A stretch of DNA of 64,000 nt from Sandaracinaceae bacterium (GTDB taxonomy: Bacteria > Myxococcota_A > Polyangia > Polyangiales > Sandaracinaceae): assembly GCA_019637095.1 (NCBI GenBank), contig JAHBWG010000009.1, positions 1-64,000 on the forward strand, written 5' to 3'. Shown piece after piece: positions 20,783 to 27,198 of this stretch (positions within the stretch are counted from its first letter, which is position 1; each line of letters opens with the position of its first letter). Below the pieces are notes generated by a model, which was not told the origin of the DNA, did no database searches, and worked only from the letters and a program-made list of their open reading frames with translations. The position numbers and the translations under genes were made by a program.

Positions 20783-21151
20783 ATGCGACTCGCGCCTTGC
20801 TCCGGTTGTCGGCGACACGTCGGGGTCGGCGCGCCGCGCTGCCCCTTCTGCGGCGCCTCGACGCGCGGGCTCACCGCGCGCGCGCCGCGCCACGTCGAGC
20901 GCCTGACGCGCGCGGCGATCCTCTACTTCGGCGCCACGCTCGCGAGCGGGTGCGGGCCGGACTCGCAAGGGCGCGGTGAGGAGGAGCCGGTGCTGATGCC
21001 GTACGGCGCGCCGCCGCTGCCGCCCGACGACGAGGGGACCTCCCGGCGCGCGCCCGACGACACCGTCGAGGACCCGCCCGCGCCCGTCTACGGAGGCCCG
21101 CCGGACGAGCTCGACGAGCCGCCGCCGCCGCCGCCTCGCCCCACGCCGTGA
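20783..21151 (+). CDS. Small zinc-ribbon protein with membrane segment and Pro-rich tail
   Basis: A 122-residue protein. The N-terminus holds two Cys pairs (CSGCRRHVGVGAPRCPFCG, residues 6-24), a zinc-ribbon pattern. A hydrophobic stretch ILYFGATLASGC (about 46-57) could be a membrane segment or an internal lipobox. The C-terminal half is Pro/Glu/Asp-rich and ends in a run of prolines. It has its own leaderless-type promoter and overlaps the next gene by GTGA. Similar short ribbon-plus-lipobox proteins seem common in myxobacteria, but I know no function. Confidence 0.7.
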   Translation: MRLAPCSGCRRHVGVGAPRCPFCGASTRGLTARAPRHVERLTRAAILYFGATLASGCGPDSQGRGEEEPVLMPYGAPPLPPDDEGTSRRAPDDTVEDPPAPVYGGPPDELDEPPPPPPRPTP

Positions 21152-22620
21152 GGGGTCGCGCCCGAGGTGCCGTCGCGATCGCCGCGCTGGCGCTCGCGTC
21201 GTGCGCGGCGGCCGTGAGCCCCGCGACGCGCGAGGCGTTCGGCGCGCTGCGCGTGTCCGCGAGCGAGTGCCGCGCGCCCGGCCCCGAGACGGTCACGCCC
21301 GACGCGATGGGCGCGGACCTCGACGTGCTCGCCCGCGTGCTCGCGCGCGGCTACGCCGGCTACACCACGGTCGGCGACGAGGCGCGCTGGGCGGGCGTCT
21401 TCGACGAGCTCCGCGAGGCTGTCGGCGACGCGCCGCGGAGCGCCGAGGCGTTCCGCGACCTGCTCGCCGAGCGGCTCCGCTTCGCCGACGACAACCACCT
21501 CGGCTTCTGGATCCGCGGCGCCGACGGCGCGCGGCGCTGGCGCGCGGCGGGCGCGCACCAACAGGCCGCGCTCTCCGAGGCGCGCTTCGTCCACGAAGAA
21601 GGCGCGTGGCGCGACGAAGAGGGCCGCGCCCTCGGCGCGTGCGCGGAGCACCTCGTCGCCGCCTGGCAGGACGGCGCGCTCACGCACCGCCTCGTGGCGC
21701 TCGCCGCGACGCCGCCGGCGACCCTCGCGTGCGACGCGCCAGACGACGCGCCGCGCGCGTTCGCGCTCCGGCCGATCGCACGCACGCGCGACCTCGGCCC
21801 CGCGTTCGAGCGCGAGGACGCGGAGCTCCCGTGGCTGCGCGTGCGCACGCTCGGCATGGCGCAGCGCGCCGCGCTCGACCGCTTCGTCGCGAGCGCCGCC
21901 GAAGTGCGCGAGGCCCCCGTCGTCGTGCTCGACCTGCGCGGCAACGGCGGCGGCAGCGACCGGTTCCTCCTCGCGTGGTTCTCGCACCTGACGAGCCAGC
22001 CGCTGCGCTACTTCGACACGCTGCGCGTCTCGAGCGATGTGGAATTGCAAGGTGCGTTGACGTTCTGGAGCTGCGAGGCGGAGGCCGCCGCGGGCGACGA
22101 CGCCGGCGCGGCGTGGGTCCGCGCGCGCGTCGCGCAGGCCGAGCGCGCGCTCGAGACCGCGATGCGCGAGCGCGGCCCGTTCGTCGACCGGATCGAAGGC
22201 ACCTACACCGAGCCCGGCCGCGCCCCCGCGCCCTTCCGCGGGCGACTGATCCTGCTCGTCGATCGCGGCTGCGGCTCCGCGTGCGAGACGGCGGTGCTGC
22301 TCGCGCGACAGCTCGAGGGCGCGCTCGTCGTCGGCGAGAACACGGAGGGCACCATGAAGGTCGGCGAGCTGCGCCACTACCGCCTGCCGGCCACGGGCGT
22401 GTGGGTCGCCGCCGGCCGCCGCGCGCACGCCGACCCCGCGCTCGGCACGTTCCCCGAGGGCCGCGGCTACCTCCCGGACGTATGGCTCGACGGCACCTCG
22501 ACGGAGCGCGACGTGATTGCGCTCGCTCGCTGCCTCACCACGCCGCCCTGCCCCGCCGCCCTCGACGCCGCCCGCGCCACAAGGCGCCGCCGGCCGAGGT
22601 CGCGATCGCCAAGGCACTGA
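21148..22620 (+). CDS. Exported S41-family (C-terminal processing) protease
   Basis: A 490-residue lipoprotein or periplasmic protein with a signal ending LALASC (Cys about 19). The middle holds DDNHLGFWI (about 112-120). The protease core follows: VVVLDLRGNGGGSDRF (about 255-270), then LILLVDRGCGSACETAVLLA (about 368-387) with the S41 nucleophile Ser in GSACE, then VVGENTEGTMKVGEL, whose Lys is the likely dyad partner. Length and order fit tail-specific or tricorn-core proteases without an obvious PDZ domain. GTG 21148 overlaps the upstream stop. The final 25 residues are Arg-rich and poorly conserved-looking. Confidence 0.85.
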   Translation: MRGRARGAVAIAALALASCAAAVSPATREAFGALRVSASECRAPGPETVTPDAMGADLDVLARVLARGYAGYTTVGDEARWAGVFDELREAVGDAPRSAEAFRDLLAERLRFADDNHLGFWIRGADGARRWRAAGAHQQAALSEARFVHEEGAWRDEEGRALGACAEHLVAAWQDGALTHRLVALAATPPATLACDAPDDAPRAFALRPIARTRDLGPAFEREDAELPWLRVRTLGMAQRAALDRFVASAAEVREAPVVVLDLRGNGGGSDRFLLAWFSHLTSQPLRYFDTLRVSSDVELQGALTFWSCEAEAAAGDDAGAAWVRARVAQAERALETAMRERGPFVDRIEGTYTEPGRAPAPFRGRLILLVDRGCGSACETAVLLARQLEGALVVGENTEGTMKVGELRHYRLPATGVWVAAGRRAHADPALGTFPEGRGYLPDVWLDGTSTERDVIALARCLTTPPCPAALDAARATRRRRPRSRSPRH

Positions 22621-22741
22621 AGAGCGCGAGGCGTGGGCGGAGTGAACGTGCGGACCACGAGCACGAAGGTCTCGTCGACTAGACCATTCTTCGAGTGGAT
22701 CCGCCGATCTCGACCGCCTGGCGCCAGGAGGCGATGTCGCC

Positions 22742-23578
22742 TTGGCAGTGGCGTACGGCAGCCAACCAGGCCGGCGCGGTACCGACAGCCCCCGCGAGGG
22801 CGAGGCCGGCGGCCTCTACGTGACCCGCGACGCCGTGCCGCGCAGGGCCTACTTGAAACCGCGCAAGCGCGAGCATGGGCCGTTCGGATGCCGCGCCGCG
22901 AGGGAGAAGATCGTCGCCGACCTGGCTCGAGATCTCGGAGTCGCGGTTCCTCCGGTGCTCTTGTTCGTTCGGCACGACGCTCCGCAGGGCGAGGAGACGT
23001 CGTGCTGCGTCTCGCTCGTTCTCTATGGGCGGCAGTTCCCCTGGCACCAGATCAAGCGCTGGGTGGAGGATCCGACGCAGAGCGAGAGGATCATGGAGCT
23101 CGTCATGCGGGATCTCCCGGTCTCGGCGGCGCGCGCCCTCGTGCTCAACGCGTGGGTCATGCAGTCCGAGCACGGCGACCACCCGCACAACATCGTGTTC
23201 GGCCTCGACAGCGACGGGGGGCCTCACTTCGTCTACCTCGACTACGCGCTCGCGCTCGGTCACCGCTTCGTCGACGATCCGCACTTCCGGGCGTTGGGGT
23301 GGCGCCGGTGGAAGGACGAGGAAGGTTGGAAGGCCCCAGTAACCGTGCCTTTCCCGCCGCTCATGCTCCAGCACGTAAGCCGCAGCGAGGTCGACGCGAC
23401 GCTGTCGCGTGTGGAGGACTTCCCCGAGGGCGAGGTGCAAGCCGTGGTCGGGCGCATCCCCGGGGACTATCTGCACGAGCAGGAACGAGATATCCTCATT
23501 GCGGGTCTAGTGGGGAGACGCAGGCTCATCCGGGCGCCGCTGGAAAGACAGCTCATGGGAAGCGGAGGTGGGACATGA
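22742..23578 (+). CDS. HipA-like kinase (HipA_2 type)
   Basis: About 278 residues with the kinase signature of HipA-related proteins: an N-lobe AYLKPRK (about 42-48), AAREKIVADLARDLGVAVPPV (about 57-77), a catalytic loop GDHPHNIVFG (about 143-152), where the DxxxxN pattern fits HipA, and a metal-binding YLDYALALG about ten residues later. HipA enzymes phosphorylate proteins such as tRNA synthetases in toxin-antitoxin systems; the HipA_2 group usually lacks a HipB partner and pairs with a DUF3037-like gene, as seems true here. The start is uncertain: TTG 22742 follows AGGAGG by 10 nt, and GTG 22748 is an alternative. Codon use looks less GC-biased than its neighbours, suggesting transfer. Confidence 0.7.
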   Translation: MAVAYGSQPGRRGTDSPREGEAGGLYVTRDAVPRRAYLKPRKREHGPFGCRAAREKIVADLARDLGVAVPPVLLFVRHDAPQGEETSCCVSLVLYGRQFPWHQIKRWVEDPTQSERIMELVMRDLPVSAARALVLNAWVMQSEHGDHPHNIVFGLDSDGGPHFVYLDYALALGHRFVDDPHFRALGWRRWKDEEGWKAPVTVPFPPLMLQHVSRSEVDATLSRVEDFPEGEVQAVVGRIPGDYLHEQERDILIAGLVGRRRLIRAPLERQLMGSGGGT

Positions 23579-24141
23579 GGCTCCGATACCAGACCGCGGT
23601 CGTCAGCTTCTGCCTCGACCTGACCGATCCGAGGGGCTACTCGATTCCGGTCGGGGTCCTCCTCGTTGGGCAGTCGGAGGGGCTCGGCGTCGCGGCGGCC
23701 ACCGCGCTCCGGACCGATCGCCTCGTTACCTCCGGCTTCCTCGATCCGATCTCGAGCGAGATCATCGGCGACCTCCTCGCGCTTCTGCAGGCTCACGTCA
23801 ACGAGGCCATCCAGGCGAATGATGGGAACGTCGACGTGAGCGACGTTCTGCTCTCATTGCGGTCGAGCCTGAGGAACAGCCTCTACGTCTCGTCGATCTC
23901 CCCGGAGCAATGCGAGGAGGTCGCCGACCCCATCGGCGCGCAGACCTTCGCGACGGGGTCGGTGCTCCGCGTGTTGCGGTCCGCGATCATCACCAGCTCG
24001 AACCAGCTCCGGGAGCGCGCCGCGAGCATGGAGGAGGACGAAGCCCCCTACCTCCTCGAGCCTCCGCCCGGCTACCTGCCCACGGCTTCGTGGCCGGTCC
24101 CGCCGTTCGGCGCTGGTCTCCGCGACTCACACCCCTGCTGA
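23575..24141 (+). CDS. Partner of the HipA-like kinase, possibly DUF3037-like
   Basis: A 188-residue protein that overlaps the HipA-like gene by ATGA and has an SD (GGAGGTGGGAC). The N-terminus YQTAVVSFCLDLTDPRGYSIPVGVLL resembles the opening of DUF3037 proteins, which often sit beside HipA_2 kinases. The middle is helical with Ser and Leu runs (DVLLSLRSSLRNSLYVSSIS), and the C-terminus is Pro-rich. The family link is tentative; tight coupling to the kinase is the firmest fact. It may act as inhibitor or antitoxin, which is inference. Base composition is lower in GC than the flanks. Confidence 0.6.
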   Translation: MRLRYQTAVVSFCLDLTDPRGYSIPVGVLLVGQSEGLGVAAATALRTDRLVTSGFLDPISSEIIGDLLALLQAHVNEAIQANDGNVDVSDVLLSLRSSLRNSLYVSSISPEQCEEVADPIGAQTFATGSVLRVLRSAIITSSNQLRERAASMEEDEAPYLLEPPPGYLPTASWPVPPFGAGLRDSHPC

Positions 24142-24437
24142 GTCGTCGGCGTCGCGATCGGGATCGCGGTCCGCTCGACTCCGGCGGGGCTGCGGCAGCC
24201 ACGCAATGCCGATGCCGCCGAACGGACCTCTGCGCGCTTGCCGGCCCACTCGAGCATCCAGACGCGCGGCGCCCTCCCGCCTCCGAGCGCTGCGCGGCCA
24301 CGGCTCCGACGGCGAAGAGGAGCAGCTGGTTCAGGTCCGTCGTCGTTCCGTTCACGGAACGGTCATGCCCACTCGTCAGGCATTGTGGAGCGGAGCTCGG
24401 AGCCACACGGTGTCTTCTCGAAAGAAGGGACGACCCC
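24142..24437. other. Intergenic region with one palindrome
   Basis: 296 bp with no convincing gene. It holds a palindrome at 24348-24362 (CCGTTC-ACG-GAACGG), about 75 bp before the pirin start, which could be an operator or hairpin. The rest shows nothing. Confidence 0.4.
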
Positions 24438-25307
24438 GTGACGACGACTACGACGCACCGAGAGAGCGACGCGCGCCCGCGCGCGATCGTGCAGCGCACG
24501 CGAGGGCACGGCGGCGGCCCGATCACGCGGCTCGCCAGCCCGTCGGACCTCGGCGAGCTCATGAAGCCGTTCGTGTTCCTCGACCTCTTCGACATCGACG
24601 GCGCGCGCGCTCCCGCGCTGGAGTCGGGCTGGCACCCGCACTCCGGGATCGCGACCGTGACCGTCGTGTTCGAGGGCTCCGCTCGGTACGCGGAGACGAC
24701 CGGCAGCGCCGGCGTGCTCCCCGCGGGCAGCGTCGAGTGGATGCGCGCCGGCGGCGGCGTCTGGCACACCGGTACCGGAGGCCCCGGTCGGCTGCGCGGC
24801 TTCCAGCTCTGGGTGGCGCTGCCGCCCGAGCTCGAGAACGGGCCGAGCAGCAGCCACTACGTGATGCCCGACGACGTGCCGCGGGTCGGACCGGCGCGGG
24901 TGATCCTCGGCTCGCACGCGGGCGGGTCGAGCCCGATCGCGACGCCGCCGATGACGTACCTCGCCGTGACGCTCGCGGACGGCGAGCGCTGGACGTATCG
25001 ACCGGAACGAGGTCACGACGTCGCATGGGTCGCGGTGCTCGACGGAAGCCTGCGCTCCAGCGACCGCATCGCGGGCGGTGAGCTGGCGATCTTCGAGCGC
25101 GGCGAGGCGGCGATCGAGCTCGTGGCGGAGGGCGAGACGCGCTTCGTGCTCGGCTCGGCTCCCCACCATCCGCACCCGCTGGTGCTCGGCAGCTACTCCG
25201 TGCACACGAGCGCGACGGCGCTGCGGCGCGGAGAAGAGGAGATCGTCCGCATCGGGCGCGAGCTGCGCGCGAGCGGCAAGCGGAGCTACGCGCTCGGTCT
25301 CGTCTGA
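24438..25307 (+). CDS. Pirin-family bicupin
   Basis: A 289-residue protein of the pirin family. The N-terminal cupin shows WHPHSGIATVTVVFEG (about 68-83), SVEWMRAGGGVWHTG (about 98-112), and RGFQLWVALP. A C-terminal cupin with RGHDVAWVAVLDG and GSAPHHPHPLVLG follows. Pirins bind Fe through three His and one Glu and act as quercetinase-like enzymes or regulators. Here the HPH pair and third His are kept, but the usual Glu two residues after that His (HxE) is Gly (HTG), so metal binding may differ. GTG 24438 follows an AAGGGACG SD. Confidence 0.88.
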   Translation: MTTTTTHRESDARPRAIVQRTRGHGGGPITRLASPSDLGELMKPFVFLDLFDIDGARAPALESGWHPHSGIATVTVVFEGSARYAETTGSAGVLPAGSVEWMRAGGGVWHTGTGGPGRLRGFQLWVALPPELENGPSSSHYVMPDDVPRVGPARVILGSHAGGSSPIATPPMTYLAVTLADGERWTYRPERGHDVAWVAVLDGSLRSSDRIAGGELAIFERGEAAIELVAEGETRFVLGSAPHHPHPLVLGSYSVHTSATALRRGEEEIVRIGRELRASGKRSYALGLV

Positions 25308-25347
25308 CTCGGCGAACGACGTCGTGCCGCCCGCGTGCGACGGCCGA

Positions 25348-25483
25348 TCATCGCGCGAGATACCGCGCGAGGCGGCGTCACATGATCGCGACCGCCTCGG
25401 GGCTCTCGTCGATCAGGACGAAGCCGCGACCGTGCTTGGCCGCCGCCTCGCCCGCGGTGCCGGAGCCGGCGAAGAAGTCGAGC
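25348..25483 (-). pseudogene. Duplicated 3' tail of the DNA methyltransferase gene
   Basis: 136 bp matching the last 136 bp of the methyltransferase gene (26374-26509) at a constant offset of 1026 bp. Over 25381-25483 I find a single difference from the other copy; the outermost 33 bp are more diverged. It still encodes LDFFAGSGTAGEAAAKHG through EAVAIM, but then has TGA where the intact gene has CGT. No other methyltransferase sequence precedes it; the joined sequence 25484-25587 is unrelated. It is a remnant, not a functional enzyme. The VapBC-like pair lies between the two copies. Confidence 0.85.
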
Positions 25484-25583
25484 CACGGTGCTCCTCCGAG
25501 TTGGCCGAGGCCGCGGGCGCTGGCCGCCACGAGGCCGGCGGTCGCACCTGCGTGGCGTTCATCTTCAGGGGCATCGGGACCGG

Positions 25584-26012
25584 TCAACGGCTCGTTCGCT
25601 TCCCCGCCGGGCGACCGCGCGAGCGAGGCGGCGGTCGAATGATCTCGACTTCAGGACCGCCGGGCACGTCCGCCCACGCCGCCTCGGTCGTGACGGCGGT
25701 GAGCCCGCGCGCCGCGGCGAGCGCCAAGCAAGCACGATCGCCGAAGGACAGGCCGAGCGCGCGCGTCACCTGGCGCAGCATTCCCGCGTGAACGGAGAGC
25801 GCGGCGTCGAAGTCGACCAGCCGAATCGGCAGACTGAGCGCCTCACGGACCGCGTCCTCCGGCATCCCGGCGTCCGCGAGCTTCGCCACGACCTCGGAGT
25901 GGTTCACGGTGCACATGACCGCATGCGCAAGCCGCGACGCGATCGCGTCCGCGCCCGGTTCGTCCTGTAGCAGCGCCAGCAGCGCTGATGCGTCGAGCAC
26001 GATCTCACTCAC
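25584..26012 (-). CDS. vapC: PIN-domain toxin, VapC family
   Basis: A 142-residue PIN-domain ribonuclease. The acidic active-site residues are in place: Asp in IVLDASALLALL (about 7), Glu in NHSEVVAKL (about 41), Asp in LSFGDRACLALA (about 93-104), and an acidic TTEAAWADV near 115. VapC toxins cut tRNA or rRNA. GTG 26012 is chosen because it gives the usual PIN N-terminus and overlaps the antitoxin gene by 8 bp, the normal arrangement in these modules. The last 25 residues are basic. The stop lies 100 bp from the duplicated methyltransferase tail. Confidence 0.88.
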   Translation of the reverse strand: MSEIVLDASALLALLQDEPGADAIASRLAHAVMCTVNHSEVVAKLADAGMPEDAVREALSLPIRLVDFDAALSVHAGMLRQVTRALGLSFGDRACLALAAARGLTAVTTEAAWADVPGGPEVEIIRPPPRSRGRPAGKRTSR

Positions 26013-26253
26013 GGGAGGCTTCCCGGCGCCGCTCGGCGCCGAGCTCCTGCGACAAGCGCCGGCCAGCCGGGACATACCGGCGCACGAGCTCCTGGGACCT
26101 CCGGATCGCCTCCGCCGGCGTCATGACCCGCAGCGAAGACTCCTCGAGGACGACCGTCACTTCGTCTCCGGCGTTCAGGCCCAGCTTCTTCCGGAACCGG
26201 GCAGGAAGCACCAGTCGCCCGGCAGAGTCGATTCGTCCCATAGCCTGTTCCAT
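26005..26253 (-). CDS. vapB: AbrB/SpoVT-type antitoxin, VapB-like
   Basis: An 82-residue antitoxin. The N-terminal swapped-hairpin DNA-binding domain is recognisable: GRIDSAGRLVLPARFRKKLG, then GDEVTVVLEESSLRVMTP (about 5-47). The C-terminal Arg/Glu-rich helix (RRSQELVRRYVPAGRRL) is the part that would wrap the toxin. It overlaps the vapC start by 8 bp. The start is uncertain: ATG 26253 is used, with ATG 26283 upstream and ATG 26241 downstream as alternatives. Short repeated ATATGG motifs around 26246-26260 may be part of an autoregulatory operator. Confidence 0.8.
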   Translation of the reverse strand: MEQAMGRIDSAGRLVLPARFRKKLGLNAGDEVTVVLEESSLRVMTPAEAIRRSQELVRRYVPAGRRLSQELGAERRREASRE

Positions 26254-26373
26254 ATCCCATATCCTGCAGTTCGTGCCGTGCACGTCAAGCCGCGCCGCCC
26301 TCGACGCGCGGCACCTCCGGTCGCTGCGCGGCGAACGTGGTCGACGCTCCGGCTCGTGCCCGCTGCCGGCTGA

Positions 26374-27198
26374 TCATCGCTCGAGGTACGGCGCGAGGCG
26401 GCAACGCATGATCGCGACCGCCTCGGGGCTCTCGTCGATCAGGACGAAGCCGCGGCCGTGCTTGGCCGCCGCCTCGCCCGCGGTGCCGGAGCCGGCGAAG
26501 AAGTCGAGCACGACGTCGCCGGGGTCGGTGTGCACGGTGACGATGCGCTCGAGCACGCCGAGCGGCTTCTGCGTCGGGTAGCCGGTCTTCTCTTTCCCGT
26601 TCGTCGGCACGATCGTGTGCCACCAGACGTCCGTCGGCGTCTTGCCGCGCGCGGCCTTCTCCGCGGAGACGAGCCCGGGCGCCATGTACGGGATGCGCGG
26701 CAGCGCCTCGTAGTGGAACACGTAGCGCTCGGGGTCGCGCGCGTAGAAGAGCAACGTGTCGTGCTTGGCCGGCCAGCGGCGCTTGCTGCGGCCGCCGTAG
26801 TCGTACGCCCAGACGATCTCGTTGATGAAGGCGTCGCGCCCGAGGAGCGCGTCGAGCGCGACCTTGACGTAGTGGACCTCGCGCCAGTCGAGGTGGACGA
26901 AGAGCGAGCCGTCGTCGGTGAGGCAGCGCAGGCTCGCCTCGATGCGCTCGATCAGCCAGCCGAGATAGTCCTCGCGGGGGCCGTCGGCGTACGCCGCGGA
27001 CGCGACGCGCTCGACCGCGTAGCGCGCCCCCTTGAAGCCCCCGCGCGCGCCGCCCGCGTCGCGCCGCACCTTGATCCGGTCGCGGCGCTGCGCCGTGCCG
27101 GTGTGGAACGGCGGGTCGATGTAGATCAGCCGCGCCACGCCGGCGTCGAGCTCGGCGAGCCGCGCGAGGCACTCGCCCTCGAGGATCTCTCGGATCAC
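26374..27198 (-). CDS. DNA methyltransferase, beta-class N4/N6 amino type
   Basis: A 274-residue site-specific DNA methyltransferase. The catalytic motif IV (LIYIDPPFHTG, about residues 24-34) comes before the SAM-binding motif I (LDFFAGSGTAGEAA, about 232-245), the circularly permuted order of the beta class. In between are FVHLDWREVHY and GYPTQKPLGVLERI, both usual for this family. No restriction enzyme gene is adjacent, so it is an orphan methylase or part of a regulatory circuit. It overlaps the histidine kinase stop by ATGA and ends the five-gene operon. The last 136 bp exist a second time at 25348-25483. Confidence 0.9.
   Translation of the reverse strand: MIREILEGECLARLAELDAGVARLIYIDPPFHTGTAQRRDRIKVRRDAGGARGGFKGARYAVERVASAAYADGPREDYLGWLIERIEASLRCLTDDGSLFVHLDWREVHYVKVALDALLGRDAFINEIVWAYDYGGRSKRRWPAKHDTLLFYARDPERYVFHYEALPRIPYMAPGLVSAEKAARGKTPTDVWWHTIVPTNGKEKTGYPTQKPLGVLERIVTVHTDPGDVVLDFFAGSGTAGEAAAKHGRGFVLIDESPEAVAIMRCRLAPYLER

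Follow-up and report, generated by a model that had tools for sequence, protein, structure and literature searches.

A candidate branch of HipA-like kinase and non-HipB partner modules, with a probably non-functional kinase, in a Sandaracinaceae genome

Within the window, i.e. the whole analysed stretch of 64,000 nucleotides (positions 1-64000 of one contig of the 9.25 Mb draft genome G000, which comprises 197 contigs), a kinase ORF overlaps the gene of a small protein. The original prediction described the two as a HipA_2-type kinase with an intact catalytic loop coupled to an atypical partner. The locus raises the question of whether this pair represents a kinase-based toxin-antitoxin module without HipB, and whether the kinase of the window can still act. 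The pair is here interpreted as a member of a rare branch of modules combining a HipA-like kinase with a non-HipB partner, which would function as toxin-antitoxin systems in the relatives, with the window kinase probably non-functional; a probability of roughly 0.55 is assigned to this reading.

The gene pair and its surroundings in the window

The two ORFs have ATGA in common, in agreement with the predicted overlap between the kinase and a protein of 188 residues. The following features were annotated at the pair and on both sides of it:

21148-22620: S41-peptidase-like gene, upstream of the pair
22742..23578, plus strand: kinase ORF of 278 aa opening with TTG, its core motifs running from GEAGGLY on; relatives found, superfamily assigned by hhalign
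23575..24141, plus strand: partner gene, ATG start, 188 aa, intact; candidate antitoxin
24549-25304: pirin-like gene, between the pair and VapBC
25584..26075, minus strand: VapC-like PIN-domain toxin (PF01850, E=2.7e-12)
26005..26283, minus strand: VapB/AbrB-type antitoxin (PF04014 and TIGR01439)
26374..27198, minus strand: DNA N6/N4 methylase (PF01555; PDLC03300, E=4.3e-120)

The GC content of the kinase-partner stretch was 67.9% compared with 73.7% for the window, and equally low values were reached by 13 of 1252 sliding 1400-bp windows, which bears out the predicted difference from the flanks. VapBC and a DNA methylase had likewise been expected nearby and were located at 25584-26283 and 26374-27198, both on the minus strand. 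Among the seven proteins scanned (21148-27198) neither a restriction enzyme beside the methylase nor an HTH or HipB-like match was detected, the latter being consistent with the claim that a HipB-like DNA-binding antitoxin is lacking. Scans for promoters, terminators and Rfam families were all empty.

A direct repeat of 143 nt (25341-25483 and 26367-26509, 94% identical, 1026 nt apart) brackets the VapBC genes. The copy at 26367-26509 spans the 3' end of the methylase gene and the copy at 25341-25483 is a remnant of the methylase end; an insertion in which this end was duplicated may have brought VapBC to the locus.

Relatives of the pair and its family placement

A search of 282 genomes of the phylum with the window kinase yielded one clear relative (genome G239, 42% identity) and three further weak matches, and the search with the partner returned G239 again (37% identity, the partner lying directly downstream of the kinase) together with five further weak matches. 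With a two-row kinase profile, four loci were found among 289 genomes of the class, namely in the window genome, G239, G286 and G367. A four-row kinase profile detected two, the window genome and G239, among 377 genomes of the phylum, and only G367 and G286 themselves among 30 genomes of the family of G367 and four of that of G286. The partner profile recovered the same four loci from 192 genomes of the class at E≤2e-70, besides three weak matches (E 9e-4 to 4e-3). The family is therefore known from only four loci, all in draft genomes of one class. The weak matches L002, L004-L006 and L009-L013 were discarded, as they carry no kinase or partner profile match at E≤0.05. Loci L088, L089 and L090 (3 kb each) score with the profile of the partner alone, at 17-22 bits, and contain no kinase; they may be remote partners or chance matches.

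Kinase and partner are adjacent, with the kinase first, in 4/4 loci, so that the neighbourhood survey supports the prediction that a HipA-like kinase is coupled to a partner other than HipB. The overlap consists of ATGA in the window, G286 and G367 (there with the second kinase piece) and of 31 nt in G239. Since three further genomes of the class also have this kinase followed directly by this partner, the pairing is not due to chance. In its own genome the kinase is single-copy, a second place at E=0.045 scoring with no kinase profile. No relatives were found in plasmids, phages or viral contigs (IMG/VR), nor in the assembled genome contigs searched with the window kinase; alignment A2 returned one relative from these contigs, to judge from its length the G239 contig. 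On another contig of G367, a contig of 3.2 kb without the partner, L024:1-330 holds a further kinase copy, which is truncated and lacks the catalytic loop.

The genomic setting differs among the relatives. The pair of G286 is located within a defence island (region L022:291-17748), flanked on one side by the helicase genes of a Druantia type, DpdE/DrmD-like (E=1.2e-178) and DruE3-like (6.1e-92), and on the other side by PDC-M27A, B and C (E=3.6e-12, 1.7e-6 and 9.3e-76). The pair of G367 adjoins HicB and HicA. The genes scanned around the pair of G239, among them those of a WYL regulator and a methyladenine glycosylase, comprise no recognised defence gene. The suggestion of a defence or stress setting is thus supported mainly by the relative in G286.

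No match to the window kinase was obtained from Pfam, NCBIfam or PHROGs at E≤1, and PADLOC reported only PDC-M03A, weakly (E=0.071). None of the family kinases exceeded the curated cut-off of PF20613 (HipA_2), two of the four matching weakly with a best E of 0.076. In profile-profile comparison by hhalign, the four family kinases aligned with nine HipA_2 kinases of class genomes over 238 columns with a probability of 97.3 and E=2.6e-11; the over-cut-off loci L028 and L034, whose kinase ORFs were not cleanly extracted, were omitted from this nine-row alignment. Against 13 HipA_2 rows the score was 74.9, a value reached by 0/100 column shuffles (maximum 21.7). The score against seven PDC-M03A kinases was 69.1, and HipA_2 and PDC-M03A scored 92.1 against each other; the PDC-M03A matches used were L047-L053, the weak ones beyond these being left out. 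In a tree of 24 rows the four family kinases formed one clade with support of 100/100, apart from HipA_2 and PDC-M03A. On the basis of the profile comparison and the separate clade, the kinase therefore belongs to the HipA-like superfamily as a branch of its own beside HipA_2 and PDC-M03A. The label 'HipA_2-type' thus holds at the level of the superfamily, reached by profile-profile comparison, and fails as a Pfam HipA_2 match at E≤1.

The partners of all four loci share the motifs Y..A..S.C.DLTDP...S.P and LRNSL.V. No Pfam family, DUF3037 (PF11236) included, matched the partner above threshold, and a PvlArgDC match (17.1 bits against a cut-off of 22.7, in 1/4 members) was rejected. Comparison by hhalign with 11 proteins located in the DUF3037 position gave E=0.0088, with 0/200 shuffles scoring as high; these rows include L035, which is not a Pfam DUF3037 protein, and L040, which is below the cut-off, and leave out L043, L044, L072, L073, L079 and L080, in which the motif pattern was not found. 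Without L035, which acts as a bridging sequence, 13/200 shuffles scored as high, and among single DUF3037 sequences compared with the partner 0/11 beat all their shuffles. The weak likeness to DUF3037 that had been predicted is absent at the level of Pfam, and its trace in the profile comparison depends on L035; at most, these alignments make the partner a possible homologue of DUF3037. The protein at L035:2217-2972 (genome G032) lies directly after a HipA_2 kinase and has no Pfam match at E≤1. Its start resembles both DUF3037 and the window partner, and it is possibly a link between the two families.

Neither the window kinase nor the partner matched a solved structure, and their two profiles gave only E≥0.95. 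AlphaFold2 models calculated from two-row alignments had mean pLDDT values of 40.6 and 51.1, too poor to test the fold. The low-confidence partner model (pLDDT 51.1) has three strands followed by a pair of helices, then one more strand and a last helix, an order that was also read by eye in DUF3037.

Frame break and catalytic positions of the window kinase

The kinases of G239, G286 and G367 open with a conserved IAxLWR...WRxxxxQAGxLG segment that is in frame with the GExGG loop. In the window, the conserved N-terminal segment lies in a different frame (22683-22803). The features relevant to the state of the kinase are:

22695..22795, plus strand: displaced kinase N-terminus in the other frame, resembling the N-terminus of the relatives
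22776..22803: frame-change zone relative to G239, G286 and G367, holding a run of five C
22856..22858, plus strand: Lys39, kept, aligned with the Lys of YLKP
23168..23170, plus strand: Glu143, at the catalytic Asp position of the joint alignment
23177..23191, plus strand: D146-HPH-N150 loop, from the family alignment
23240..23242, plus strand: Asp167 (LDY), kept, aligned with the Asp of HipA_2 (IDH) and PDC-M03A (FDH)

The displaced N-terminus matched the kinase of G239 by BLASTP with E=3e-6 and the family HMM with 16.3 bits (i-E 2.8e-4), and the DNA alignment revealed a net difference of two bases in the frame-change zone. As the N-terminus is found in the other frame, the window copy is therefore either frameshifted or mis-assembled, and the original start of the kinase was probably the GTG at 22695 and not the TTG at 22742. 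The kinase of G367 is interrupted as well, but independently and close to its C-terminal end. Kinases are thus broken in 2/4 loci and partners in 0/4, and the two broken loci are those without the catalytic Asp. A single-base assembly error in these draft genomes could be the cause of either break.

In the joint alignment, the position which we take to be that of the catalytic Asp is occupied by Asp in 13/13 HipA_2 and 7/7 PDC-M03A rows and, within the family, by Asp in G239 and G286, by Glu143 in the window and by Thr in G367. The positions of Lys39 and Asp167, presumably the nucleotide-binding Lys and the Mg-binding Asp, are kept in the window kinase, as are those of the helix Glu and Asn150. 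The sequence GDHPHN, which had been described as an intact DxxxxN loop, contains three residues between D and N and is thus a DxxxN spacing, and the aligned catalytic Asp is replaced by Glu143; HPHNIVFG is invariant in 4/4 family rows. An intact kinase as initially predicted is at variance with both the frameshift present in this assembly and the Glu at the catalytic Asp position.

It is conceivable, although unlikely, that the same toxin-antitoxin module is functional in the window, in which case the frame break would stem from a mistake of sequencing or assembly at the C run, and the catalytic acid would be D146 or Glu143 itself. The draft state of the genome with its 197 contigs, the retention of Lys39, Asn150 and Asp167, the open frame downstream and an Asp at the D146 position in 3/4 family members would all agree with such a kinase. 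However, the Asp found in 20/20 outgroup kinases is Glu in the window; G286, the remaining member, has Asn at the D146 position and keeps the aligned Asp, and the branch of the window kinase is the longest of its clade in the tree (0.93 compared with 0.48-0.55). Because of the N-terminal frame break and the Glu at the catalytic Asp position the window kinase is judged to be probably non-functional, and the most likely state of the window copy, as read from its sequence, is a dead kinase beside a working partner. A broken kinase with a kept partner would fit the decay of a toxin before its antitoxin, a pattern for which two loci are far too small a sample.

Proposed role and relation to known systems

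The closest described counterpart is a HipA-like kinase paired with a DUF3037 protein. In Retron-Sda1, defence against Bas51 is reported to be lost when the HipA-like kinase is deleted, and deletion of DUF3037 to be toxic; the kinase-DUF3037 pair is equated there with PDC-M66 (PMC12548924). A further paper calls the related system DS-6 'HipAD', credits it to Brenes and Laub 2025, reports that defence is lost in a kinase mutant and predicts binding between kinase and partner (PMC13092281). In 78 genomes of the class, 6/6 DUF3037 matches adjoin a HipA_2 match, and HipA_2-DUF3037 plasmid pairs annotated by NCBI overlap by 4 nt (Streptomyces globosus, Pseudomonas syringae) or 23 nt.

The family resembles HipAD/DS-6/PDC-M66 in having the kinase first and a non-HipB partner second with a short overlap, and in its related kinase profile. 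Its partner opens with a similar stretch and shares the strand and helix order, as far as the low-confidence model and the reading of DUF3037 by eye permit. In contrast to HipAD, the window kinase has no match to PF20613 or PDC-M66A and the partner none to PF11236 or PDC-M66B, whereas three established pairs, included as a positive control, match both PDC-M66A and PDC-M66B. Furthermore, the family constitutes the separate 100/100 clade with a DH..HPHN loop instead of the NxDR..NPN of HipAD kinases, and the catalytic position of the window kinase is Glu. With HipBA and HipBST the pair shares a HipA superfamily kinase controlled by a neighbouring gene, but it differs in the lack of an HTH antitoxin and of a HipA Pfam match in the window, and in the downstream position of the partner, HipB reportedly lying upstream (in part from PMC8262856). 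The text of that paper, a survey of HipA homologues, contains no occurrence of DUF3037 (PMC8262856).

By analogy with HipAD, the most likely mode of action of the family is that of a kinase toxin restrained by its partner as antitoxin. In the intact relatives, the kinase would act as a toxin that arrests growth and would phosphorylate a target in the host, and the downstream, translationally coupled partner would bind the kinase and neutralise it. Phage infection or stress would then release the kinase, upon which the infected cell would halt. In the window, the toxin kinase would have decayed and the partner would have been retained.

A non-toxic role of the pair, regulating or accessory to the neighbouring defence or stress genes and HipAD-like only by descent of the kinase, is considered quite improbable. 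The partner is not demonstrably a DUF3037 protein and the kinase lies outside both HipA_2 and PDC-M03A, which would leave room for such a role; the strict, overlapping pairing that HipAD shows as well, and defence or toxin-antitoxin genes around the pair in G286, G367 and the window, argue against it. Membership in PDC-M03, a PADLOC candidate system with a HipA-like kinase, was rejected as highly implausible: the kinases of G239 (E=1.8e-5, with no match to PDC-M66A) and G286 (E=6e-4) match PDC-M03A and a weak tree grouping with PDC-M03A was obtained (71/25), but the seven PDC-M03A loci (L047-L053) carry a loop of the DRHxxN spacing, their readable downstream genes encode a protein that is by eye unlike the window partner, the family falls outside the PDC-M03A clade with support of 96/94, and the hhalign score is lower than that for HipA_2 (69.1 compared with 74.9).

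Returning to the toxin-antitoxin reading with a decayed window kinase, the family may tentatively, at somewhat less than even odds, be proposed as a third, undescribed two-gene HipA-like kinase defence family beside HipAD and PDC-M03, with an antitoxin family of its own (Y..A..S.C.DLTDP...LRNSL.V), an altered loop (DHxxHPHN), a distribution so far limited to one bacterial class and, in the window, a dead kinase with a kept antitoxin. In the literature on DUF3037, HipA-like kinases, HipAD, PDC-M03 and PDC-M66, nothing recognisable as this family was found. If the proposal is true, kinase-based toxin-antitoxin defence comprises more than the families recognised by current Pfam and PADLOC models, and partner proteins can diverge far while the order of the kinase and partner genes persists. 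The pair of G286 inside its defence island offers a concrete pair for testing, and for the window locus caution is advised against labelling it as an active kinase.

In the loci L047-L051, the PDC-M03A kinase is followed by another kind of protein, which by eye is HIRAN/HipA-N-type-like.
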